Shown piece after piece: positions 3,065 through 14,423 of a stretch of DNA of 64,000 bases. This DNA comes from Sphingosinithalassobacter tenebrarum (lineage in GTDB: Bacteria; Pseudomonadota; Alphaproteobacteria; Sphingomonadales; Sphingomonadaceae). The notes below the pieces were generated by a model. It ran no database searches. It saw only the letters and a list, made by a program, of their open reading frames with translations, and was not told the origin of the DNA. Positions within the stretch are counted from its first letter, which is position 1, and the number at the start of each line of letters is the position of its first letter. The stretch is taken from positions 3,193,001 through 3,257,000 of the forward strand of contig NZ_CP049109.1 of assembly GCF_011057975.1 (NCBI RefSeq), read 5' to 3'. The position numbers and the translations under genes were made by a program.

Positions 3065-3799
3065 ATGGCCGAGGTCGACGCCGCGAACGTTCGCGAGGAG
3101 TTGAAGGAAGAGCTCTACAAGCTTCTCATCAGCTCGATCGAAACCCGGATTCCTGGTCAGGTTGAAAATCTTCTGGTCGATCGCATCGTCGAGCAGCTTC
3201 AGCCCCGGCTTCAGCAGAAGGCCCAGATTTCGCTGGACGATGCAACGCGCGACCGGCTCGCTGAAGCAATCGCCATGAAATTGGGGCCGGACGAACAGAA
3301 CGGCAGCGGCGGTGGCGGCGCGATGCCGCTTCTCGGCCAAGCCGGGTTCCTTGTCGCCAGCCTCCTTGCGGCGTTCGGCATCGTGGCTCTGATTGCTGCG
3401 GCATTTGTCCTCCTGCGGCCTGCCGAAACGCGGAGCGTGGCGACCGAGGATATCCCCCCGGTCGTGACGGAGCCGGCCGCCAATGACACCGGGAATCCTG
3501 CGTGGCGACAATTCGTCAGCCGACTGGCGTTGGAGCGAAGCGAGTTTTTCAAGAATCATAGCGCACTGATTTGCGGTGCCGACACGCTGTTGCTCGACTG
3601 CAGACCCTATTCCGCCTCGATAGAGGCCTGGAAGCAGCTTTCGGGCGATAGCGAGGTGGCTCAGCTCAAGCAGGTCGCGGTTGCGCTCGCCGACCAGACC
3701 GGTTGCGCGACGTCCTTCGACGACGCGACAGCGTATCAGCGCAACTTCTATATCGAGGGTATCGATCGATGCCTTGCCGATGCGGGAACCGGGCAATAG
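3065..3799 (+). CDS. Single-span membrane protein, first gene of the GTPase/SEDS/PBP operon
   Basis: I do not recognise this 244-residue protein. Residues 1-75 are hydrophilic and helical, with an acidic-basic pattern suggesting a cytoplasmic coiled or helical region. A Gly-rich linker (about 79-86) precedes one membrane helix (about 95-118). The remaining 125 residues carry several cysteines and are probably periplasmic. The start at 3065 is chosen over upstream GTG 3026 and ATG 3047 because a run of G residues at 3053-3059 gives a well-spaced ribosome-binding site. Its TAG stop abuts the ATG of the next gene at 3800, so translation is probably coupled. Its role is unknown; topology suits a scaffold joining cytoplasmic and periplasmic partners. 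Confidence 0.75.
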   Translation: MAEVDAANVREELKEELYKLLISSIETRIPGQVENLLVDRIVEQLQPRLQQKAQISLDDATRDRLAEAIAMKLGPDEQNGSGGGGAMPLLGQAGFLVASLLAAFGIVALIAAAFVLLRPAETRSVATEDIPPVVTEPAANDTGNPAWRQFVSRLALERSEFFKNHSALICGADTLLLDCRPYSASIEAWKQLSGDSEVAQLKQVAVALADQTGCATSFDDATAYQRNFYIEGIDRCLADAGTGQ

Positions 3800-5362
3800 A
3801 TGCCGCTTTCGCTGCCTATGGCTGTTTTCGGCCCGCTGGCGAACGGGGCGGATGTCCGCCTGCTCGCGCGTCCAGAAGGGAACCAGCTGAGTTCGGCCGC
3901 GCAGGCGGAGTTCAGCCGCTTTTATTATGCCGGGTGGCAGGGATCAGCGGTTCGCGAGAAGCCTTACTGGGCCTTTTTTCGCCTTGATAGTGACTATTGG
4001 GGGCTGGCGAAGTCCGAGGTTATCGCCAAGCGGTCGATGGGAGTCATTTTTGTCAGCTGGCTGCTGTTGCTCACCGAAGCGCAACTGAACGAGATCGGCT
4101 GGCAAACCTACTGCCTGTGGAACGAAGCGCTTCCCGCACCGCTAAGGCTTCTCGAGCCGGGAACGCGCCTGGCTCCGGCAGTCGTGCGACCGCACCCTGA
4201 ATACGCGGTCGGCTCCGACGTTTTCGCGCCAGCCGAAAATCTCGCCTTTTCGATTTCCGCCGGTTGGGACCAGCATCGCCCTGTCTTTCTGCCGTCCGTT
4301 CCATCGCTCGGCGGAACGCCGGAATCGACCCTCGCCATTGTCCAGAAAAGGCTGGGCACGATGATTGCCGGACATAGCTATGCGACGTGGCCGGGCATTG
4401 AGGATCATGACTTTCAGACGCTCGACGGTCCGTTCGACCTGCTCGTAGGAGAGCGGCCGGCTGCCAAGAGGGAGCGGCTGACGGCAAACACGGAAACACC
4501 ACCAACCACGGTCTGGCTCGATCGGCGACAACGCGAGTGCGGAATCGAAGGCGTGCCGAAAGAACTGAATGAGAGCGACCTCAAACAGATCGCGGAGGCG
4601 CGGTTCGAAGAGCATCGCAAACAGCTCGTCGAAAGGCGGAACTTCGGCGTATTCGGTGAGATCGCACGCTCCAGTCACGTCAATTCGTTCGCGGCGCCGA
4701 CCCTGCTGTTCCTGGTAGTCGACGCACTGCCTCCCGCAGACAAGGTTACGGCGATCGATACGTTCGTCGCCGACGCGCTGAAGGATGTTCGCGAGGCCGG
4801 GCAGTTCGAGAACGGCAGCGACAAGATCGCGATCGAATCGATGACTCGCGACCTGATATTCCGGCTTGCGCCCCATACCATTGCCAAATTGCATCGCTCA
4901 CTGTTCGGTACGGTCGACGCCCCAACGCTGACATCAGACATCGACAGGGCGCTCGATCGACAACTGGCCCGATGTTCCGATTGGAGCTGGGCGGCGCCCG
5001 CTACGCTGCGCGAAATGGCCGGTTTGCTGGAGCCTTCCGATGTCGCCGACCGGCTAAGGAACAAGCTGCTGGCAACGCTTGGCGCCATGAATGCAGCCGA
5101 AGCGAACGACGACATCGCGGCCTATCTCGACACGTGCCCCGACTTCGGGAGCGCGTGGAGCCGCTATCACAGCATGTCGAGCAGCCTGCCAGAGCGGCAT
5201 CGGACAAGCTTTGAGAAGCATACCGCCCCAATACTGGAAGCGCGGGCGCTCGACTGCATCCGCAATCCCCGCAATGTGACCGAGGCGATGGAGGCGATTG
5301 TGCGAACCCTGTTCATGCTTGCCGATGGCGGTTTGAGCGGTTCGGAAGGAGCGATCCGATGA
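3800..5362 (+). CDS. Cytoplasmic protein sharing a domain with the adjacent GTPase
   Basis: This 520-residue soluble protein has no signal peptide or clear membrane helix and I cannot name it. Residues 281-334 (NFGVFGEIAR through REAG) resemble residues 19-84 of the next protein (DFSVFGELAR through REAG), so the two share a helical domain. The N-terminal 130 residues, with a Trp-rich stretch and VSWLLLLT around residue 90, are only vaguely reminiscent of the N-terminal domains of GTPase-associated proteins (GAP1) from bacterial conflict systems; I could not confirm this. It overlaps the GTPase gene by 4 bp (ATGA), which argues for a direct functional partner, perhaps a regulator or effector adaptor of the GTPase. 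Confidence 0.75.
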   Translation: MPLSLPMAVFGPLANGADVRLLARPEGNQLSSAAQAEFSRFYYAGWQGSAVREKPYWAFFRLDSDYWGLAKSEVIAKRSMGVIFVSWLLLLTEAQLNEIGWQTYCLWNEALPAPLRLLEPGTRLAPAVVRPHPEYAVGSDVFAPAENLAFSISAGWDQHRPVFLPSVPSLGGTPESTLAIVQKRLGTMIAGHSYATWPGIEDHDFQTLDGPFDLLVGERPAAKRERLTANTETPPTTVWLDRRQRECGIEGVPKELNESDLKQIAEARFEEHRKQLVERRNFGVFGEIARSSHVNSFAAPTLLFLVVDALPPADKVTAIDTFVADALKDVREAGQFENGSDKIAIESMTRDLIFRLAPHTIAKLHRSLFGTVDAPTLTSDIDRALDRQLARCSDWSWAAPATLREMAGLLEPSDVADRLRNKLLATLGAMNAAEANDDIAAYLDTCPDFGSAWSRYHSMSSSLPERHRTSFEKHTAPILEARALDCIRNPRNVTEAMEAIVRTLFMLADGGLSGSEGAIR

Positions 5363-7074
5363 GCGTGCAGCAACTCTTCGCAACCTATTCCCCGCGCCTC
5401 TTCGGCACGCGCGATTTTTCGGTCTTCGGTGAACTGGCCCGGGAGATGATCGCAACCGGCGACGATGCCGCGGCCGGCGCCGAGGATGTCGAAGGCCTGT
5501 TGCGCATGACAGTCCGCGCCCTGGCGGCAGATCCATCGGGCTTGCAAACGGCCGCCGACGCGATCGATGCCTATGTCGCCGATGTTCTGCCAATTCGCCG
5601 CGAAGCCGGGCTGGACGGAGGCGAAATTGCGAAGCTGGCCGCAGAAGCAGGCGTACGCAACAAGCTCAAGCCACAGACCAATCTCGCGCTGAGGCAAGCC
5701 GGAGTGCCGCCGGCCCCTGTTGCACCTGAAGCGCAGCCGGAAGCGGGGAACGGGGCAAACGAAGAGGAGAACCCACCCGAAAAGGCGGCCCAGGAAGCGC
5801 AACCGGACACAGAAGAACCGACTGAAGCCGCCGAAACAGAAACGGCATTTGATGAACCCGAGAACGACGAGGGCGCCAGACCCGCGCGACGACCGACCAA
5901 CGACGCGGCGTTCGGCAACCAGCCGATAAATTACGACATCGTCTGCGACATCCTGGTCAAGCGGTACAAGCCGGGCCGCATTCGGGCGGTGATCCTGGGC
6001 CTGGCGACGGCCGGCAAGACCTTCTTTGTCCAACGTCTCGCGCGTAATCTGCCCGACTATGCGCTGCTCAATTATTCCGGTGCGGTACAGTTGGGTGGAA
6101 CGAAGACAGACCGTACGCAGGGACTCATCTATTACGAGCTGCGCGCCATCGAGAAGGGCGTCCCGTCGATCGACCTGTTCGACGTTCCGGGGGAAACGTT
6201 TCGCGAACTGTCCGGTGGCGACGCATCCGAAGAAACGCAGGCGGCTTCACCGCATCTGCAAAGTCTCTATGCGGTCATGGCCGCTGCCGATCTGGTCATC
6301 TTCATCGAACCGGCTTTCGAAGTGCTCGAGCCTGACCAGTATCTTAGCGACGGCGACGACTATGAGCCGTATCGGCGTAAGGATTTTGAAGAAGAAATCC
6401 GCAGCCAGGAACCCGATACGAGTCTGCTCGAGCTTGACCAGGCAGTAGAGGCCAGACTGAGGGCCTTCCGGCAAAACCATCTGAACCTTATCGAACATTT
6501 TCCCAACAATTTCGAGGTCGTCCGCGCCCGCACCGCCCATTTGCGAAACACTGCCCGCCCGGCGCTTCGCAGCGGTGATCTTGATCTCTTCAAGGCGGAA
6601 ATCGCGAATTTTCTCAAACTGGATTTCGCCAGTCTCGACACGCAGCACCGTCCATTGCCCATCCCCGGGATCTACCTGCTGTCCAAGGCGGACGAATATG
6701 AGCGCAGGGTGACGGCGTCGAAGGGACTGTTCGACCGCGACCCTGCGCAAACCTTGGCGGAGTTCGTGCCGGCGCGGTACAAGGCTTATTCTCGCGGGTT
6801 TCGACTGTTCGGCGCGGACTTCATCACCTCGGAACGGAGAATCAGTGAAGACGATCCGGTGCGCGAGTTTGCCGGTGGAAAAGGCGCCGCCGGCTTTTCG
6901 GAATTGCTCCAGCACTGGGTGCACCCCGCCGTCAGGCTGACGCGCCCGGTGCGCTGGTGGGAACCGTGGCGGCTGGGGCAAAGCTGGGCCCAGTCGCCGA
7001 CCAGGGCATTGGCCTGGCGCAAACGGCTCGACCGGGAATTTCGCGACGTCTGGAAGCGAAGGACTGGGGCATGA
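5359..7074 (+). CDS. TRAFAC-like GTPase with N-terminal shared domain
   Basis: This is a predicted GTP-binding protein of 571 residues. Residues 19-84 match a domain of the preceding protein. Residues about 115-180 form a Pro/Glu/Ala-rich linker, probably disordered. The nucleotide-binding domain shows a P-loop (G214, G219-K220-T221), a G3-like motif DVPGE at 275-279 and a G4-like SKAD at 442-445, where SK replaces the usual NK. The G3 motif has Pro before Gly, common in small GTPase relatives of conflict and signalling systems. No membrane helix is seen. ATGA overlaps on both sides put it at the centre of a tightly coupled operon. GTP rather than ATP specificity rests on the G4 aspartate D445. 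Confidence 0.82.
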   Translation: MSVQQLFATYSPRLFGTRDFSVFGELAREMIATGDDAAAGAEDVEGLLRMTVRALAADPSGLQTAADAIDAYVADVLPIRREAGLDGGEIAKLAAEAGVRNKLKPQTNLALRQAGVPPAPVAPEAQPEAGNGANEEENPPEKAAQEAQPDTEEPTEAAETETAFDEPENDEGARPARRPTNDAAFGNQPINYDIVCDILVKRYKPGRIRAVILGLATAGKTFFVQRLARNLPDYALLNYSGAVQLGGTKTDRTQGLIYYELRAIEKGVPSIDLFDVPGETFRELSGGDASEETQAASPHLQSLYAVMAAADLVIFIEPAFEVLEPDQYLSDGDDYEPYRRKDFEEEIRSQEPDTSLLELDQAVEARLRAFRQNHLNLIEHFPNNFEVVRARTAHLRNTARPALRSGDLDLFKAEIANFLKLDFASLDTQHRPLPIPGIYLLSKADEYERRVTASKGLFDRDPAQTLAEFVPARYKAYSRGFRLFGADFITSERRISEDDPVREFAGGKGAAGFSELLQHWVHPAVRLTRPVRWWEPWRLGQSWAQSPTRALAWRKRLDREFRDVWKRRTGA

Positions 7075-8714
7075 CCGGAGCCAAAAAATCTCCGCTTCCG
7101 CAGCCGCGAGACAAGCCGGCGAGAGCGCACGCCATTCTGTTGCGGATGGGCGAATGGCGGCTCCGTCATCCGCGGCGGATGCTCGCGGCAATGACATTGA
7201 TCCTTTTATTGCCTGCGCTGCTCTACCTGGGATTGGCCTGGATCATGACCGCCCCGGGAGAAGCGGGCGGACTTCCCACATCCAGTATCACGCTGATTGC
7301 ACCGGACGACCCTTCGCGGCGGGATCTGCAGCGCGACGTCAACCAGGCAACGCCCGCGGAGCGGGAGCGTATCGCCACACTGAGCTTCGTGCTCCATCCA
7401 TTTCCCTATATGATGCCGCTCCAAAGCGGAATGATTCCGTCGGGCGAGAATTTACAAGGTTCGGATACCGGCGCGCGAACCAAAAGCTATGTCGGAATCG
7501 GACGGCTATTCCAACGATCGGGGTGCGCGGACGACGCGAAACAGATTACCGCCGGGCGCGTCACCGATGCTGCAGCACTGAAGCGAGCCGAAGAAATGCT
7601 GATCCCCCTTCAGGCAGGATCGGACGGCGTCAATCTCGCTCGATATTTCTATTATTCCGGGCTCTTGCAGCTCTGTAACAATGACATGCGGCAGGCCTAT
7701 AACGCCTTCAAAACAGCGCGTGCGACGCTGGAAAAGGTTGATTCCAGCCCGGATCCGAACAGCACGGTCGGCCAATACCGCTATGTCAGCGCTGCGGGGG
7801 AAAGGCTTGCCGCCGCCCAAATAGACGCCACGTTGCCCACCCTGCCCGATGTTCCCGGTGTATTCGGCTCAAGGCTTTGCCCCGAAAGTCAATTCAGCGA
7901 CGGTTGTGCATTGTTTCACTGGCCCAAGCGGCGAACGGCCCTTGTTGAGCTGCATACATTTTTGCTGGATCCACACGCCTCCGCGACATCCTATCGCGAC
8001 GCACTGGCCGACGCCGGCAATGGGTATGGGACTCTCAGCGCGCGCAACTTTGCGAATACGGTTGTCGCGCACGCAAAGGCCGGCGATTACGAAAATGTCG
8101 CCTCCCTGCTGAACCAGACAAGCTCTATCGCCTCGGACCGCGATTGCGATGCGCTCGGCCGCATTGCCAATATCGGCTGGATAACCGGCAAGCTCGACCA
8201 AAGCAGCGACAATTTTACCTGTTCGCGTGGTGGTTTGCCGACGAACGACGGCACGCTGGGGACCGATTTCAAGCGGATCGAGGTATGGGAACAAGTCCAT
8301 CGCTACCGAGCCGCATTGCGTGTCGGCAACTTTCAGGAACTGATCGCCTGGATGCATGCCATCGACAAGCAATCCCCGGACGAGCGTGCATTTCTGGAAC
8401 GAGTCCGCACCGAATTGCTTGCGCGGCTGAGCAAGCGACTTCTGGCACAGGCCGAGCAACTGCGAAAGAAAGGGAGTGGGGAAAAAACCCGAACCGATCT
8501 GCTCAAGCTGTTGCGCCTCGAAGCATTTCCCTTCGCCACGCGCATGTCCGCGGCAATTGCACTTTCGTGGGGCCCCGTTGAATATACCTACTGGGTTCCG
8601 GCGGTTCTCACACTGCTGCTGCTGATCTTGCTCCGGCTGTTTTGGGACTTTTTGGCCGGCTACCGATTGATGTTCACGCAGCGTCACTATCAGGAACGGC
8701 AGAGCCATTCATGA
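7071..8714 (+). CDS. Bitopic membrane protein with large periplasmic domain
   Basis: This 547-residue protein has a basic cytoplasmic N-terminus, a membrane helix at about residues 38-60, a hydrophilic domain of about 440 residues, a second helix at about 506-527 and a short basic tail. The positive-inside rule places both ends in the cytoplasm and the large domain in the periplasm. That domain is helix-rich; residues about 150-250 look like TPR-type helical repeats, and several cysteines could form disulfides. I do not recognise the family. The start at 7071 overlaps the GTPase stop (ATGA), and the stop overlaps the next start the same way. Confidence 0.75.
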   Translation: MTGAKKSPLPQPRDKPARAHAILLRMGEWRLRHPRRMLAAMTLILLLPALLYLGLAWIMTAPGEAGGLPTSSITLIAPDDPSRRDLQRDVNQATPAERERIATLSFVLHPFPYMMPLQSGMIPSGENLQGSDTGARTKSYVGIGRLFQRSGCADDAKQITAGRVTDAAALKRAEEMLIPLQAGSDGVNLARYFYYSGLLQLCNNDMRQAYNAFKTARATLEKVDSSPDPNSTVGQYRYVSAAGERLAAAQIDATLPTLPDVPGVFGSRLCPESQFSDGCALFHWPKRRTALVELHTFLLDPHASATSYRDALADAGNGYGTLSARNFANTVVAHAKAGDYENVASLLNQTSSIASDRDCDALGRIANIGWITGKLDQSSDNFTCSRGGLPTNDGTLGTDFKRIEVWEQVHRYRAALRVGNFQELIAWMHAIDKQSPDERAFLERVRTELLARLSKRLLAQAEQLRKKGSGEKTRTDLLKLLRLEAFPFATRMSAAIALSWGPVEYTYWVPAVLTLLLLILLRLFWDFLAGYRLMFTQRHYQERQSHS

Positions 8715-11326
8715 CATTGACTCTGCTGCTCGGCGGGATCGTCTGGTTCGCGATTGCATGCACGCTCGTCTGGTTCGGCAGTGCCGGTTCTGGCCTGCGC
8801 CGCGTCATCGGGATAGTGCTTGCTCTGCTCGGGCCCGTCATGGGCATCGCAATGTTTTATTTCGCGCTGGCCGAGGGTGCGGCGAGCGCTGGCGCGCCAG
8901 ACGCCTCCGGCCGTCGCGCCGGTCAGACCCGGATCGTGCTGCTGGAAGCCGATATTCAGCGGAGCGAAGGTTCGCAAACGCTGAGCATGGGCGGTGATCC
9001 TGCAACCGACGATATCGTGCTCGACGGGTTTCCGCCCGCGGTTGCGATTGTAAAGGAGGTCGATGGCACGACGCGCGTGAGCGTTAAAGAGCGCGCTGCC
9101 GAAGAACCCGCCGTTGCGCTTTTTGCGGGGAACAACCGTATCCTTCCGGGCAATTCGCTTGCCGTGCCGAAGACAGTGACGCTGAGGTTCGCCACGGTCG
9201 AGGACGGAAACGACATCCCCGCCGAAATCGACGATCTGCCCACCACGCACCTGAGCCTGTCGGTATCGCGGACCGAAAAGCGCTGGAACATCGCCTTTCT
9301 GGATCCCGAAGCCGAATACACATCGGGCGGAAACGTCCAGCCCGCCAGCGCGGATCTCGAACATCAGCCGCGAGAGGGCGACAATGTCGTTGCGTTCGGC
9401 ATGCTCGGCGGGACGTTTGCGCCACTGCTCGAACATGTCGAGCTCGTCCTGCCCCAAGAAGCCGGACTGCACACCTATGTCAGCGGCAACAGCCCGGGAT
9501 ACAAGGACAATCAGCGGATCGAGGTCAGGGAAGGCGGCCTCGGCATCGTTCTTCGTGTCGACCCGTTAAATTTGACCTCCGGCTTGCGCGGCTATGCGGG
9601 GCAAGTCGCCAGCCTGATCTTGGTTGCTTCGATGATCGTGACCTGGCGAGTCCGGCGCGATGTACCGCTAGCCGCAATGTTGCTGGCAACGGCCGAAGTG
9701 CTTCTCTCGCTCCGCATAATCGTCGCGATGGAGGGCGGACTGGTCGATGAAACGGTGCGTTCGCGAGCCGCCCTGGGAGATGCACTGGTGGCACTGCCCC
9801 TTGGCCTGCTGGCGCTGAGCGCCGCCATCGGATCGATCAAACGTCTGCCGATTCAGGGCGTGGTGTTCGGCGGGTCCGCGATCTGCGTGATGCTGCTGAT
9901 CAAGGCGGTGCATCATGATATCCCGGAGACGAGCTGGCAGGTCGTCAAGTTGCTGATGGCGCTGACGCTACTGGCAATCACCATACGGTATTCGCTCATT
10001 CCTAGGGGATATCGCCTTGCGCGCAGGCTGCTCGAACAGGCCAAAAAGCGCGCTCCGGCTGCGTGGAGGGCGCGGCTCGCTTCGCTTCGAAACGGCAGAG
10101 TGTCGCTGATTATCAGAGATTGGGTCGCGCGCACCCGAGCGCTGCCGCTGTTGCATTGGTTACGGCGGCAATGGTGGCTGCCGATTCTGGTGGCATATGC
10201 GTTCGGTGTGGCGCTGGTCTCGTTACGCATCATCCTCGCAGAGCTGGGAATGCAGGAACGCATCAGCGCAGGCCAGAGCAGCAGCGGCGCGCTGAGCATC
10301 GGCTTCGTACCGCTGACATTACTTGCCGCAACCCCGCTTTTACTGTTGCTTTCGCGCGTCAAGGAGCGCCGCCATATCTTCTTTTGCGGGATCGCCTTCC
10401 TGGTATTTCTGGCCCTGTTCGTGCTCCTCCTTAATTATCGGGTCGGCGATAGCGGCCTGGGCATTGTCCTGATGGTGAGCCTGGCCTTGGCCGGCGCTGG
10501 AGGCCGGCTGGAACGCACGCCTGCGGTAGGTCGCAATGCGTGGCTGACGATCACGCTCACGGCGTTCGCACTGGCATATGGCATGTCCGGTTATCTGGCG
10601 GGCAACAGCGGCTGGTGGATCATACCGCTGCTGCTGCTTCTAGGCGCGGTCGGATTGCAGCTATGGGTGCGTTCATGGGACAGCGCCTGTTCCATCCCCT
10701 GGCTGCTTCCGGCGGCGACGTTGAGCGCAATCATCCTGTTGACCTCCTTCCCGCAATTGCGGCCGGAAATGTCCTCCCCGCCAGGCAATGTGGAAGCGAT
10801 GTCGGGCAGCTCGGTTCCCGAACTGCGTCTGATGGCAGCGCTGGCCCCGGAACGCCTGGCGTTTCAGGCGGGCCAGTCAGCGGACGACATCCGGGAGACC
10901 TTCGGGCATCTTTCCTACTATATCGATGACTGGGATGGGCACGGGATGCTGAACTTTCCGCAGCCGCCGCCGGGTCTGAAGAAGCAGCAATTCAGCGACT
11001 ATGCGCTGGCCTTGCACGTCGTTTCCCCGTTCGGCAGGTTTGCCGCCATTGGTCTTTTACTGATGCTTGCGGGTCTGGCTGCGCTGGCCTTTTCCCGGGT
11101 CCAAGAGAATCGCGGCGAAATTTGGTTCGGCGCACTGGCGATCACTGCCTTCGCGGGCACATCTGCCTATATCGCGCTCGCAAACCTGCTGCAGGCTCCC
11201 TTTACCGGCCGCAATTTTTACCTTTTGGCCGTGCAATCCTCCAGCGACCTGGCGGAAGGACTGCTGTTGCTGATTCTTGGCGCGGTAACGCTGGCGGCCG
11301 TCGACACCGAGGTGCGCGATGAATAA
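8711..11326 (+). CDS. Polytopic membrane protein, divergent SEDS (RodA/FtsW)-like
   Basis: This 871-residue protein has two N-terminal helices (about 3-22 and 32-53), a beta-rich soluble region (about 74-300) and then a dozen or so membrane helices. The soluble part has an FHA-like pattern (a GGDPATDDIVLDG segment near residue 94) but lacks the Ser-Arg-x-His core, and charge bias suggests it is periplasmic. The membrane part resembles SEDS peptidoglycan polymerases: a GLGIVL segment like the RodA/FtsW DLGTAL motif, an extracytoplasmic loop ending in FSDYALALHV like the SEDS TDFIFAV motif, and PFTG at 830-833 followed by SSS at 843-845, like the SEDS PxTG...SYGGSS signature. The transpeptidase gene directly follows, as in rodA-pbpA pairs. 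SEDS assignment is an inference from motif order. Confidence 0.6.
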   Translation: MTLTLLLGGIVWFAIACTLVWFGSAGSGLRRVIGIVLALLGPVMGIAMFYFALAEGAASAGAPDASGRRAGQTRIVLLEADIQRSEGSQTLSMGGDPATDDIVLDGFPPAVAIVKEVDGTTRVSVKERAAEEPAVALFAGNNRILPGNSLAVPKTVTLRFATVEDGNDIPAEIDDLPTTHLSLSVSRTEKRWNIAFLDPEAEYTSGGNVQPASADLEHQPREGDNVVAFGMLGGTFAPLLEHVELVLPQEAGLHTYVSGNSPGYKDNQRIEVREGGLGIVLRVDPLNLTSGLRGYAGQVASLILVASMIVTWRVRRDVPLAAMLLATAEVLLSLRIIVAMEGGLVDETVRSRAALGDALVALPLGLLALSAAIGSIKRLPIQGVVFGGSAICVMLLIKAVHHDIPETSWQVVKLLMALTLLAITIRYSLIPRGYRLARRLLEQAKKRAPAAWRARLASLRNGRVSLIIRDWVARTRALPLLHWLRRQWWLPILVAYAFGVALVSLRIILAELGMQERISAGQSSSGALSIGFVPLTLLAATPLLLLLSRVKERRHIFFCGIAFLVFLALFVLLLNYRVGDSGLGIVLMVSLALAGAGGRLERTPAVGRNAWLTITLTAFALAYGMSGYLAGNSGWWIIPLLLLLGAVGLQLWVRSWDSACSIPWLLPAATLSAIILLTSFPQLRPEMSSPPGNVEAMSGSSVPELRLMAALAPERLAFQAGQSADDIRETFGHLSYYIDDWDGHGMLNFPQPPPGLKKQQFSDYALALHVVSPFGRFAAIGLLLMLAGLAALAFSRVQENRGEIWFGALAITAFAGTSAYIALANLLQAPFTGRNFYLLAVQSSSDLAEGLLLLILGAVTLAAVDTEVRDE

Positions 11327-13751
11327 TCAGCAGCTGGCACTTGCATCCCGCCGTTCGCCGCTGCTGGCATGTATACTGGCAGGAGCGGCGTTGCTGGTTG
11401 CCCTCGGCCCGACCGGTACGCAATGGCGACAGAGCCATCTCAGTATCGTCGCGCAACGTCTTGTCGAGGCCGGCTGGTTCAAGGTGTCGGATACCGACAC
11501 GCGACGCGAGATCGTTCTGGCCGACACCGAAGGTAATACGGATACTCTCGCGAACCGCGCAAGCGTGGTCGAAGCAGTGCCCGGACTGACGCGACATATG
11601 CGCCGGCTCGATTTTTGGCTGACGGGAAGCGAAGACAGGGTCCTGGGTTTCGAGGCAAATGACAATATCCGAAGCCCTTTCGAAAACGGTGACACCTGGT
11701 CGGGTGAAATGCACTATGGCCGGCGCCCGGACATTGATGTGATCCCCCTTGTCCGCAGCGGCGAGACTGGCGGACAGATCCTGCTTTCAGCCGACCCCGC
11801 TCTGGATCTTCGCATCAGGAGACGCTGGTCACGAATCGACATAAGGCACCCGGAAGCTGGGCCCCGCTCGGGCAATGTCTTCGAGTTGATGTGCGGCAAT
11901 GAGCCCGGCGCGCTGGTCTATCGAATAGCGGACGCAGTGATCGTCAATACGGACGCCCGCGGTAAATGCGAGGTCAAACTGCGAGGCCAGCGTCTGGGAG
12001 ACAGCGACTATTGCCAAAGCCACGACATCCCGATGGCGCGCTGCGGCTTCGGCGTCTTGCGGCCCGGCGACCTGCTGACATTTTCGATGCCGGAGGGCGG
12101 GGAGAACAGCTTTGTTGCTCGCTATCAGCGCCGCGCGCTGCCCAGCTCCGCAATGGTGATGCGCCGGAACGCCAACATGGACAAGATACCCGCCCCGGGC
12201 CTTGGCGATTTCGTCAGGGCGACTGCGCTCGATCTGGGCGGGGCGTTGATCGGGTGCGAGAATGGCGCGGCGAACCTGACGATCGGCTGTAGGCAGGATC
12301 TGAAACTGTCACTGGACTATCAGGTCCAGCAGCAGGTCCAGTCGATCTTGACCGCAGATCGTGCAAGCCGACAGGAACAGGGGCTCCGCGGCGTCGCTGC
12401 CATTGTGGTAATGAACTCGCGCTCCGGCGAAGTGCTGGCAATGGGCGGCTACAGCATGCCGGACAACCGCTATTGCCCGATGGCGGCACTATGCCTTCTT
12501 CCTGTCGGGTCGGCTGCAAAACCGGTCTTCGCGACAGCAATGATCGGCGGCGTCACCGACAATGACCTGTCTACGCTGAAAATTCCCCATCGCGGCGCCG
12601 AACTGAGTGACATTCTCGGGCTTCAATTCAACGGAACCGTTCAGAATACCAATCGCAACACTCCGATCAACGATCCCGTGAGTTTGTCGACGTTCCTGCG
12701 ATACAGCGACAACCACTATATCGAATCAATGCTGATCCTGGCTTCCGGGACAGGAAACGAGTCCACGTGCCCCATGACGGCAGAAGACTGGTACGAACTC
12801 GACGGGAAGCGAGTGACCGGTGAACGGCCTCGTTCAAGCTTTGAGGATGAAAACTGCGCGCCGCTACGCCGTGGTTTCCAGGCAAGGTTCCGGCCCGGCT
12901 GGGCGGACAAGCTGGACGAATATTTCGGGCTTACCCCGTACGGACGGGACACGATGGATCCTGAAACATTGTGCAAAAATTCCCGGATGGCCGGTAATAT
13001 GAGCTATGATGCCATGCCTTGGCACGCCTTGTTTCAGCCCGAGGCCGATCGGTGCCTGATGGCGAATTCTGGACTGCAGCGCAATTGGATGCAGATCGAT
13101 CGCATGCGGGACTTTCGCACGGAAGCCGTGCCGTTCCTTCTGGGTAACAACGGGGGACATTGGAGCGCCGTCAAGCTGGCTGAAGCGCACGCTCGTATCG
13201 TCACCGGTCGCGCTGTCTGGGCCAGCTTTGTATACTTAGGGGGCGAACCAGCTTCGCAAGCCATCGACTTCAGCAACGGAAGGACCGATGCCCGGGTGGC
13301 CGTAAGCGCCGGCATGGCCAAGGTGATCGTGGGCACTGCCGCCCACTCGGAAGTCCCGGCGGCGGTACGCAGGCTACGCGACAGATTGCCCAGAGGCTAT
13401 GCGCTCGGCGTCTTCGCCAAGACGGGCACGATGCAATTGCCAAGCGAGAGCGCTATCGCGCAGGACTGCATCGGAGAAGTTCCTATGCGCGAATGCGTCG
13501 GCAAGGCATTTGTCATCACACTCGCCGTCTATAACGACACCGGCTCGCTTTCGCGCGACCCCGAGACAGGGCTGGTAACGGACGCTGCCCTTCGGCCGCG
13601 CTGCGCGATTACCACCGTAGTCAACTTTCCGCGCTGGAACGGACACGGTGGCGCCTTCGCTGCCGTCAATACTGCCGCTACGTTGATCGACGGCAAGATC
13701 GGTGAGCGTTTGCTCGAAACGGAAGGGATCTTTTGTGGGCCACGCGATTAG
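11319..13751 (+). CDS. Penicillin-binding-protein-like transpeptidase
   Basis: This 810-residue protein has one N-terminal membrane anchor (about residues 13-31), an unrecognised periplasmic region (about 40-320) and a C-terminal penicillin-binding transpeptidase domain. All three active-site motifs are present: SxxK (S398-A-A-K401, within VGSAAKP), SxN (S463-D-N465) and KTGT (K701-T704). It should therefore cross-link peptidoglycan or act on a related substrate and bind beta-lactams. The N-terminal half is unlike the standard class B pedestal. The gene overlaps the SEDS-like gene by 8 bp, supporting a polymerase-transpeptidase pair. Many cysteines are present for a periplasmic enzyme, suggesting disulfides. 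Confidence 0.82.
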   Translation: MNNQQLALASRRSPLLACILAGAALLVALGPTGTQWRQSHLSIVAQRLVEAGWFKVSDTDTRREIVLADTEGNTDTLANRASVVEAVPGLTRHMRRLDFWLTGSEDRVLGFEANDNIRSPFENGDTWSGEMHYGRRPDIDVIPLVRSGETGGQILLSADPALDLRIRRRWSRIDIRHPEAGPRSGNVFELMCGNEPGALVYRIADAVIVNTDARGKCEVKLRGQRLGDSDYCQSHDIPMARCGFGVLRPGDLLTFSMPEGGENSFVARYQRRALPSSAMVMRRNANMDKIPAPGLGDFVRATALDLGGALIGCENGAANLTIGCRQDLKLSLDYQVQQQVQSILTADRASRQEQGLRGVAAIVVMNSRSGEVLAMGGYSMPDNRYCPMAALCLLPVGSAAKPVFATAMIGGVTDNDLSTLKIPHRGAELSDILGLQFNGTVQNTNRNTPINDPVSLSTFLRYSDNHYIESMLILASGTGNESTCPMTAEDWYELDGKRVTGERPRSSFEDENCAPLRRGFQARFRPGWADKLDEYFGLTPYGRDTMDPETLCKNSRMAGNMSYDAMPWHALFQPEADRCLMANSGLQRNWMQIDRMRDFRTEAVPFLLGNNGGHWSAVKLAEAHARIVTGRAVWASFVYLGGEPASQAIDFSNGRTDARVAVSAGMAKVIVGTAAHSEVPAAVRRLRDRLPRGYALGVFAKTGTMQLPSESAIAQDCIGEVPMRECVGKAFVITLAVYNDTGSLSRDPETGLVTDAALRPRCAITTVVNFPRWNGHGGAFAAVNTAATLIDGKIGERLLETEGIFCGPRD

Positions 13752-14046
13752 GCCACTTCGCCATCTACGAGCCTATGTAACGCTCCGCGATGCCATTCCG
13801 CTCGGCATCTTGATCCTTCTCGCGATCACGAGCTACCAGGCGTTTGAAGTTCCGAAATCGGAGCGCGTAAGCCAACCGGTGCGCGTGACGGTCGCGCGTC
13901 GGGACGGGGAAACCGCCACGCAGATCTGCCATCGTTACGGGATCCCGGTAGACAGCTACTGCCAAAGCATGGAGGTCGAGGCCGATCGCGCGACGCTGAC
14001 GCTTGATCCAGACCCGCTTTCAACCGATGCCGGTTCGTCGCGCTGA
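13735..14046 (+). CDS. Small membrane-anchored LysM-like protein
   Basis: This 103-residue protein has a basic N-terminus, one membrane helix (about residues 20-35) and a short periplasmic domain. Residues 51-90 follow the LysM pattern: a strand, then RDGET (like GDT), ICHRYGI (like IAxRYGV) and a hydrophobic end. C65 and C76 could form a disulfide. LysM domains bind N-acetylglucosamine polymers, which fits the cell-wall character of the operon. I chose the GTG at 13735, preceded by AAGGG at 13723-13727; the frame also opens at GTG 13702. It overlaps the end of the PBP-like gene by 17 bp. The LysM reading is tentative because the domain is short and divergent. Confidence 0.6.
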   Translation: MGHAIRPLRHLRAYVTLRDAIPLGILILLAITSYQAFEVPKSERVSQPVRVTVARRDGETATQICHRYGIPVDSYCQSMEVEADRATLTLDPDPLSTDAGSSR

Positions 14047-14051
14047 TCGCG

Positions 14052-14423
14052 TCAGTGCGGCTGCCCTTGTGCCTGCTCCAGATTGGTAAATGATGTGTGA
14101 AATCCGGCCCAAGAGCGGCGGACCGGGATTCTCCGATCCGTATATTTCGCCACTTCAAGCACTTCCGACATGGTTCGTCCTTCGCCGTTGATCCACACGA
14201 CCAACGGCGCCGTGGCGGCGCTCGAACCGCATTTCGCCACGCGAAATTTCACGCCGACCCGACCGCCGCGAACGATGGTGCATTCAGGTTCGGCGGAAAG
14301 CATGAAGGTCTGATGCGCCGCCTGTTCGAGAGCAGACTGCAGATCGGCAATGGCAGTGTCCGCTGCAGGTCCGTCGCCCACTGTTTCAGCGTGCTGGCCA
14401 AGAAAATTTGCATGAATGTTCAT
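14052..14423 (-). CDS. Hypothetical protein
   Basis: This 123-residue soluble protein has no recognised domain. It is convergent with the preceding operon, with only 5 bp between the stop codons. The start at 14423 (MNIHANFLG) is preceded by a G-rich ribosome-binding site, which the longer TTG-started frame lacks. The N-terminal half is helical and the middle contains a TIVRGGRVGVKF strand pair. There is no signal peptide. Function unknown; it is oriented against the operon and is probably unrelated to it. Confidence 0.6.
   Translation of the reverse strand: MNIHANFLGQHAETVGDGPAADTAIADLQSALEQAAHQTFMLSAEPECTIVRGGRVGVKFRVAKCGSSAATAPLVVWINGEGRTMSEVLEVAKYTDRRIPVRRSWAGFHTSFTNLEQAQGQPH

Follow-up and report, generated by a model that had tools for sequence, protein, structure and literature searches.

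A seven-gene operon joining a SEDS-like membrane protein, a probable class B penicillin-binding protein and a predicted P-loop GTPase in Sphingosinithalassobacter tenebrarum

Operon layout and recurrence

We analyzed a 64,000-nucleotide stretch of the Sphingosinithalassobacter tenebrarum genome (RefSeq assembly GCF_011057975.1, contig NZ_CP049109.1, positions 3,193,001 to 3,257,000), here called the window, which carries an operon of seven genes, g1 to g7, at positions 3065-14046. All seven lie on the forward (+) strand, and their frames translate without internal stops. They encode a single-span membrane protein (g1, 3065-3799), a probably soluble protein (g2, 3800-5362), a predicted P-loop GTPase (g3, 5359-7074), a two-span membrane protein (g4, 7071-8714), a polytopic protein resembling the SEDS proteins RodA and FtsW (g5, 8711-11326), a penicillin-binding protein (PBP; g6, 11319-13751) and a small membrane protein with a GTG start (g7, 13735-14046). 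Neighboring genes abut or overlap throughout: g1 and g2 meet at TAGATG with 0 bp between them, g2 and g3 share 4 bp (ATGA), g3/g4 and g4/g5 also overlap by 4 bp, g5/g6 by 8 bp and g6/g7 by 17 bp. An original prediction made from the nucleotide sequence had described seven same-strand genes with these joints, all of which were reproduced. GTPase motifs (GLATAGKT, DVPGE, SKAD) are present, as are the SxxK, SxN and KTG motifs that it had listed for the transpeptidase (SAAK, SDN, KTGT). Hydrophobic spans number one in g1 and two in g4; g5 is polytopic, and g6 and g7 each begin with a single N-terminal span. The composition of the operon is well supported. None of the seven proteins reached a Pfam or NCBIfam cut-off, and a PADLOC scan of them gave nothing at E<=1; for these three resources g1, g4, g5 and g7 were scanned as longest frames.

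Three further loci, L092 (genome G129), L093 (G930) and L096 (G1154), have all seven slots filled in the same order, and one of their genomes belongs to another family. Since both the gene order and the motifs are found again in these three, the operon is more than a chance arrangement. In pairwise hhalign comparisons among the four genomes, g5 is homologous in 6/6 pairs (P<=2.3e-10), g6 in 6/6 (P<=1.4e-4) and g3 in five of six (P<=0.0013), the window GTPase matching the other three at P 8.6e-6, 3.3e-8 and 1.3e-3. The best of 30 cross-slot controls, run between the window and L093 with g5 excluded, reached P 0.018. In addition, a public metagenome-assembled genome carries g5 and g6 homologues with adjacent locus tags (V4475_11900/V4475_11905), and homologues of g3 and g6 were found with an identical listed longest contig (1,400,310); the searches behind both observations scored at most 8000 candidates. 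The genes thus co-occur outside the window genome, as the original prediction had required, in three operons with all seven slots and in the adjacent tags of the metagenome-assembled genome.

The distribution of the operon is sporadic. A four-member g5 profile found it in 3 of 397 genomes of the family, the window genome included, and added two new distant homologues, while an enlarged g5 profile matched 2 of 250 genomes of the class, again with the window genome included, the one new homologue coming from another family. Among genomes of the genus, a profile of close g3 homologues matched 1 of 295, the window genome included. When g3 alone was used against 196 genomes of the order, it returned the window genome and two weak matches before the G domain (E 6.2e-5 and 9.6e-4), which were counted as chance. 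These counts are lower bounds, because G129, apparently part of the order sample, was missed by the single g3 query. Exact peptide patterns likewise look too strict for this family, since later profile searches found three operon genomes. No relative was seen in phages (g3 query), in plasmids (g5, g3 and g2 queries; g6 not searched), in IMG/VR (g3 profile) or in genome-contig scans with the g5 profile and with the g3 profile.

A divergent SEDS-like protein and its transpeptidase partner

The g5 product (871 aa) appears to be a divergent SEDS-like polytopic protein with an N-terminal extension, as judged by hydropathy, profile alignments and charge counts. We compared it with a SEDS reference alignment built on 30 FtsW/RodA sequences taken from 16 genomes, using as controls 100 column shuffles that preserve the hydropathy pattern. 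By hhalign, a six-member g5 profile scored 50.1 (P 3.6e-5), with a shuffle maximum of 26.6 (0/100 as high) and 21.4 for the reversed profile; a seven-member profile scored 44.9 (P 1.9e-4), with a shuffle maximum of 32.2 and again 0/100 as high. Seven unrelated polytopic proteins scored singly reached at most 20.0 against SEDS, a value exceeded by six of seven single g5 proteins, four of them modestly (20.8-26.8), and missed by one (16.6). The alignment spans the catalytic loop through the last loop and places g5 KQQFSD on the SEDS motif E-x-H-T-D-F and APFTGRNFYLL..S on P-x-x-G...SYGGS. D763 of g5 (10997-10999) thereby aligns with the catalytic aspartate of SEDS loop 4, given as D262 of E. coli RodA in PMC10449877; equating that residue with the aspartate of E-x-H-T-D-F is our own letter correspondence. 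TGRNF (residues 832-836, 11204-11218) would occupy the final outer loop and lines up with P-x-x-G...SYGGS. All seven g5 homologues share D763, A767, H769, P773, F774, G775, N825, P830, T832, G833, N835, S843, D846, E849 and G850 without exception.

The predicted SEDS-like core of g5 (10184-11326) comprises seven spans, one of them hand-placed, followed by a loop at residues 680-776 and three further spans, as indicated by hydropathy, profile and charge. Its orientation comes from a 17-span model in which two spans (residues 297-315 and 612-630) were placed by hand, both being helical in a poor AlphaFold model. Under this model, one face carries 15-23 lysines plus arginines in loops shorter than 60 residues and the opposite face 3-7, in 7/7 proteins. 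This asymmetry would place the loop carrying D763 outside, with seven core spans ahead of it and three behind. The span order is therefore supported as consistent with SEDS, two spans being hand-placed. The SEDS-like character that had been proposed for g5 accordingly has profile and residues as its basis, with topology in support and no fold.

Upstream of this core, a domain between spans (residues 54-296, 8870-9598) is placed outside by charge and appears partly beta, with beta strands in the AlphaFold model and a block pLDDT (predicted local distance difference test) of 69-81 over residues 111-190. RodA and FtsW are not known to have such an inter-span domain. An FHA-like reading of it, suggested by eye from a GGDPxxDDI stretch, found no Pfam support. 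This large extra domain, together with the position of g5 far outside the SEDS family proper, would fit a protein that makes or transfers another lipid-linked glycan, of capsule-, O-antigen- or exopolysaccharide-like type, which g6 might then anchor via peptidoglycan. We consider this unlikely: g5 is in register with the SEDS profile at the catalytic loop, no O-antigen ligase or other glycosyltransferase was found by Pfam at E<=1 in the scanned proteins of the window, L092 and L093, and no recognized sugar-nucleotide or export gene is among the seven genes.

Downstream and overlapping with g5, g6 (810 aa) encodes what is, by its motifs and profile, a transpeptidase of the PBP type that lacks GT51, composed of a single N-terminal transmembrane span (residues 15-33), a domain of ~290 residues and the transpeptidase domain. 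The SxxK motif is SAAK (residues 398-401, 12510-12521), the SxN motif SDN (463-465, 12705-12713) and the KTG motif KTGT (701-704, 13419-13430); S398, K401, S463, N465 and the whole of KTGT are invariant in six homologues. A four-member g6 profile aligned with 21 PBPs over the transpeptidase part at P 7.7e-12 by hhalign, with the three motifs in register, and the reversed control gave P 0.51. Against PDB sequences the g6 profile recovered 30 at E<=1e-3, over ~100 residues round SxxK; 28 are named FtsI, PBP2, PBP3 or PbpB, and the other two bear different names, among them 'Peptidoglycan glycosyltransferase'. GT51 is absent from g6, for which Pfam gives no family at E<=1, and the AlphaFold model is poor (mean pLDDT 39). 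The motifs and the profile match uphold the transpeptidase assignment made earlier for g6, which is probably a class B PBP (bPBP).

The enzyme identities predicted for g5 and g6 are well supported. The great overall divergence from RodA/FtsW might be expected if g5 and g6 were inactive relatives that serve as a membrane sensor or scaffold. We regard such a role as highly improbable, given that the presumed catalytic positions are invariant in proteins that have otherwise drifted to 23-28% identity between L092 or L093 and the window.

A search of 398 genomes of the phylum with the g6 profile, in which at most two candidates per genome were scored, gave matches in 64. In the 63 others the match covers no more than ~150 positions, almost always within the transpeptidase region, and these were counted as ordinary PBPs or chance. 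A distant g6 homologue, P0010, has 28% identity over 48%, with a listed longest contig of 846,350 bases.

The GTPase and its partner proteins

The motifs of g3 (571 aa), invariant in an alignment of five sequences, identify it as a P-loop GTPase, as the original prediction held, with a long linker before the G domain. Its Walker A motif is GLATAGKT (residues 214-221, 5998-6021), in which G214, G219, K220 and T221 are invariant in the five. DVPGE (275-279, 6181-6195) would represent Walker B / switch II and keeps D275, P277, G278 and E279, and SKAD (442-445, 6682-6693) is a possible G4 motif with an invariant D445. The last reads SKAD, TKAD or TRSD in the five-sequence alignment. The L096 counterparts of the three motifs are GFSYSGKT, DLPGE and, by eye, SIAD.

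The glutamate that follows D-x-P-G in g3 recalls the conserved Walker B glutamate that PMC7159879 describes for DO-GTPases, and raises the possibility that the operon serves conflict or defence in the manner of DO-GTPase systems, with a change of the envelope as its output. Its sporadic distribution would suit such a role. The g3 profile matched DO-GTPase2 at P 0.0021, exceeding all 60 shuffles (0/60 as high). Against the DO-GTPase family PF19993, g3 scored 12 bits, below the cut-off of 27. The resemblance to DO-GTPases concerns the Walker A and DVPGE motifs and, to a small degree, the profile, and other G domains might share it. The L092 GTPase (L092:7213-8616) has, by eye, a zinc-ribbon-like cysteine stretch at its N-terminus, which the window g3 lacks; N-terminal zinc ribbons are reported for 60% of DO-GTPases in the same paper (PMC7159879).

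In g2 (520 aa, 3800-5362) the N-terminal ~110 residues are conserved. Alone against a two-sequence GAP1-N1 model, g2 gave a borderline result, above 489 of 500 of its own shuffles with 11 higher. As a GAP1 protein it was rejected: 16/40 shuffles were as high in the profile test, Pfam gave no match, and the single-sequence hits were off register. Because the GAP1 identity of g2 fails, we do not file the operon as a DO-GTPase/GAP1 system. Like those systems, as described in PMC7159879, it is a sporadic operon with a P-loop GTPase bearing D-x-PGE and with membrane components; unlike them, it has no recognized GAP1, GASH or FNIII, a single GTPase, and cell-wall enzymes that form its constant part and do not behave as a variable effector. 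No GASH/GAP1 domain was found in the proteins scanned (L096 not scanned), PADLOC gave no match at E<=1, and the phage (g3) and plasmid (g5, g3, g2; g6 not searched) searches were likewise without a match. On balance, we judge a defence function to be distinctly unlikely. Classical DO-GTPase/GAP1-N1/GASH systems at loci L069 and L070 served as a yardstick.

The remaining proteins are less conserved. Homologues of g2, for which Pfam gave nothing above cut-off, were recognized in L093 (P 2.8e-6) and L096 (P 1.8e-4; L093/L096 0.011), the L092 partner being positional only; the g2 profile also gave a weak match to a capsular biosynthesis protein (E 0.0062). g2 and g3 each contain one marginal hydrophobic stretch (1.65 and 1.77, threshold 1.6). 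g1 (244 aa, 3065-3799) has a helical N-terminal part, a transmembrane span at residues 99-117 and a C-terminal domain presumably on the other side of the membrane. Its N-terminus is homologous to that of the L096 counterpart (P 0.0012; L092/L096 P 1.8e-4), whereas the L093 partner, compared after truncation of its N-terminus, corresponds by position only. g4 (547 aa, 7071-8714) has a large part between transmembrane spans at residues 37-55 and 511-529, weak homology to L093 (P 0.0097; L093/L096 P 0.0011), a positional partner of 238 aa in L092 and a weak, sub-threshold Pfam match to TPR (E 0.067). g7 (103 aa, 13735-14046) consists of a transmembrane span and a short tail with two cysteines; its partners in L092, L093 and L096 are positional, with weak similarity in one pair, L093 (P 0.01). 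The proposal that g7 is LysM-like did not hold up: Pfam gave it nothing at E<=1, and the genes that fill the g7 slot in the other operons do not conserve the motif.

A possible GTPase-gated envelope synthase and its genomic setting

Taken together, we propose that the operon encodes an accessory synthase of envelope glycan, made up of a SEDS-like/bPBP pair, and that a GTPase of its own gates this pair by way of membrane partners, a reading to which we give a probability of about 0.6. The analysis establishes which genes are present, their order, and the active-site residues together with the conservation of these residues. We infer that the products form one accessory envelope complex. In this complex, g5 would act as a far-diverged SEDS-type glycan polymerase on a lipid-linked precursor, for which lipid II is the simplest candidate, with polymerization via the aspartate in the large outer loop, and g6 would cross-link the g5 product as a transpeptidase. 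g3 would be the cytoplasmic GTPase, with g2 its likely soluble partner, and g1 and g4 could relay the GTPase state over the membrane to g5/g6, by analogy with MreC for RodA-PBP2 or FtsQLB for FtsWI. g7 might be a small membrane-bound accessory. SEDS-bPBP pairs are activated via loop 4 and the bPBP pedestal, according to PMC8078798; since g6 has no recognizable pedestal, the contact of an activator with g6 would differ.

The operon resembles the synthases RodA-PBP2 and FtsW-FtsI in placing a polytopic protein with a SEDS-like loop and aspartate next to a single-span transpeptidase. It differs from RodA/FtsW in the N-terminal extension of several spans and the 243-386-residue insert of g5, which Pfam does not detect, from known bPBPs in the missing recognizable pedestal of g6, and from both pairs in adding a GTPase and four further proteins. 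As with the regulators of the Rod complex and divisome (MreCD, RodZ, FtsQLB-FtsN), single- and double-span proteins stand beside the SEDS-bPBP pair, although none of the proteins scanned has a Pfam match to any of these regulators. MreB and FtsA filaments have a control role for the Rod complex and divisome, whereas control is proposed here to come from a GTPase. It is conceivable, and we hold it only tentatively, that the operon represents a third SEDS-bPBP lineage beside those of elongation and division, switched by a dedicated GTPase and not by a cytoskeletal filament.

Several results weigh against this proposal. Pfam gave no match of g5 to PF01098, and the g5 profile matched no SEDS chain in the PDB at E<=10. 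With four closer g5 homologues, hhalign against SEDS was not above background (2/40 shuffles higher), although a global alignment of residues 600-871 of the same set reached P 3.2e-4; a SEDS model searched against g5 proteins with hmmsearch scored inside the shuffles for 4/4, and the reverse search was slightly above them (best 6.1 vs 5.7, rank test p 0.001). By these measures, g5 is not callable as SEDS from single sequences or from the four closer homologues. Hydropathy alone gives variable span counts (window 15, L092 13, L093 17, L096 17), and at threshold the 7+3 core is seen in L093, as 6+3 in the window and not in L092 or L096. The AlphaFold model of g5 is poor (mean pLDDT 52), and a Foldseek search with it yielded nothing from the PDB at E<=0.001, FtsW ranking 21st (E 1.2). 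For g6, the best NCBIfam model is the class A PBP_1a (E 1.1e-5, 24.5 bits, cut-off 508.75), the PBP2 model being weaker (E 0.0014), and residues 1-310 gave no match to PBP regions (P 0.12), so that a pedestal was not recognized. The sixth g3 pair, L092/L093, was not above controls (P 0.026). Correspondence is by position only for g7 and, in individual genomes, also for g1, g2 and g4. Finally, the gating link is our inference, as nothing in the analysis ties GTP state to synthesis.

How SEDS-bPBP pairs are activated is still being worked out, for the most part in two complexes that are essential. Here a compact, apparently non-essential operon carries what would be a polymerase, a cross-linker, a switch and a membrane relay of its own; it could be deleted and rebuilt freely, so that each link between nucleotide state and wall synthesis becomes testable in turn. 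If the proposal is true, SEDS-type enzymes reach well beyond detection by current family models. The operon looks like a real, undescribed machine, and we found no title or abstract start in the open-access literature describing one like it.

Elsewhere in the window genome, two canonical SEDS genes, presumably FtsW and RodA, match PF01098, and six other places exceed the transpeptidase cut-off. Since these are present, the operon is an addition to the genome, and the two canonical SEDS genes likewise suggest that the synthase was added and sporadically inherited. Its G+C content is 61.1%, compared with 64.2% for the window. The G+C profile is low over ~2-15 kb, and a foreign origin is unproven because G+C also dips at 21-24 kb. 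By eye, the genes flanking the operon differ among the window, L092 and L096. Genome G279 has the membrane-fusion protein/MerR pair that precedes the operon in the window, with no g1-g7 match in the 19 kb examined. Between 2000 and 15600, the tRNA-Gly takes part in no repeat of >=16 nt. The orphan frame beside the operon (14052-14420, -) has no Pfam match at E<=0.1, and 0/40 other relatives searched match it. In the window, the operon is preceded by the membrane-fusion protein gene (942-2060, -) and the MerR-family regulator gene (2195-2683, +), and is followed downstream by this orphan frame, the tRNA-Gly and a molybdopterin enzyme.

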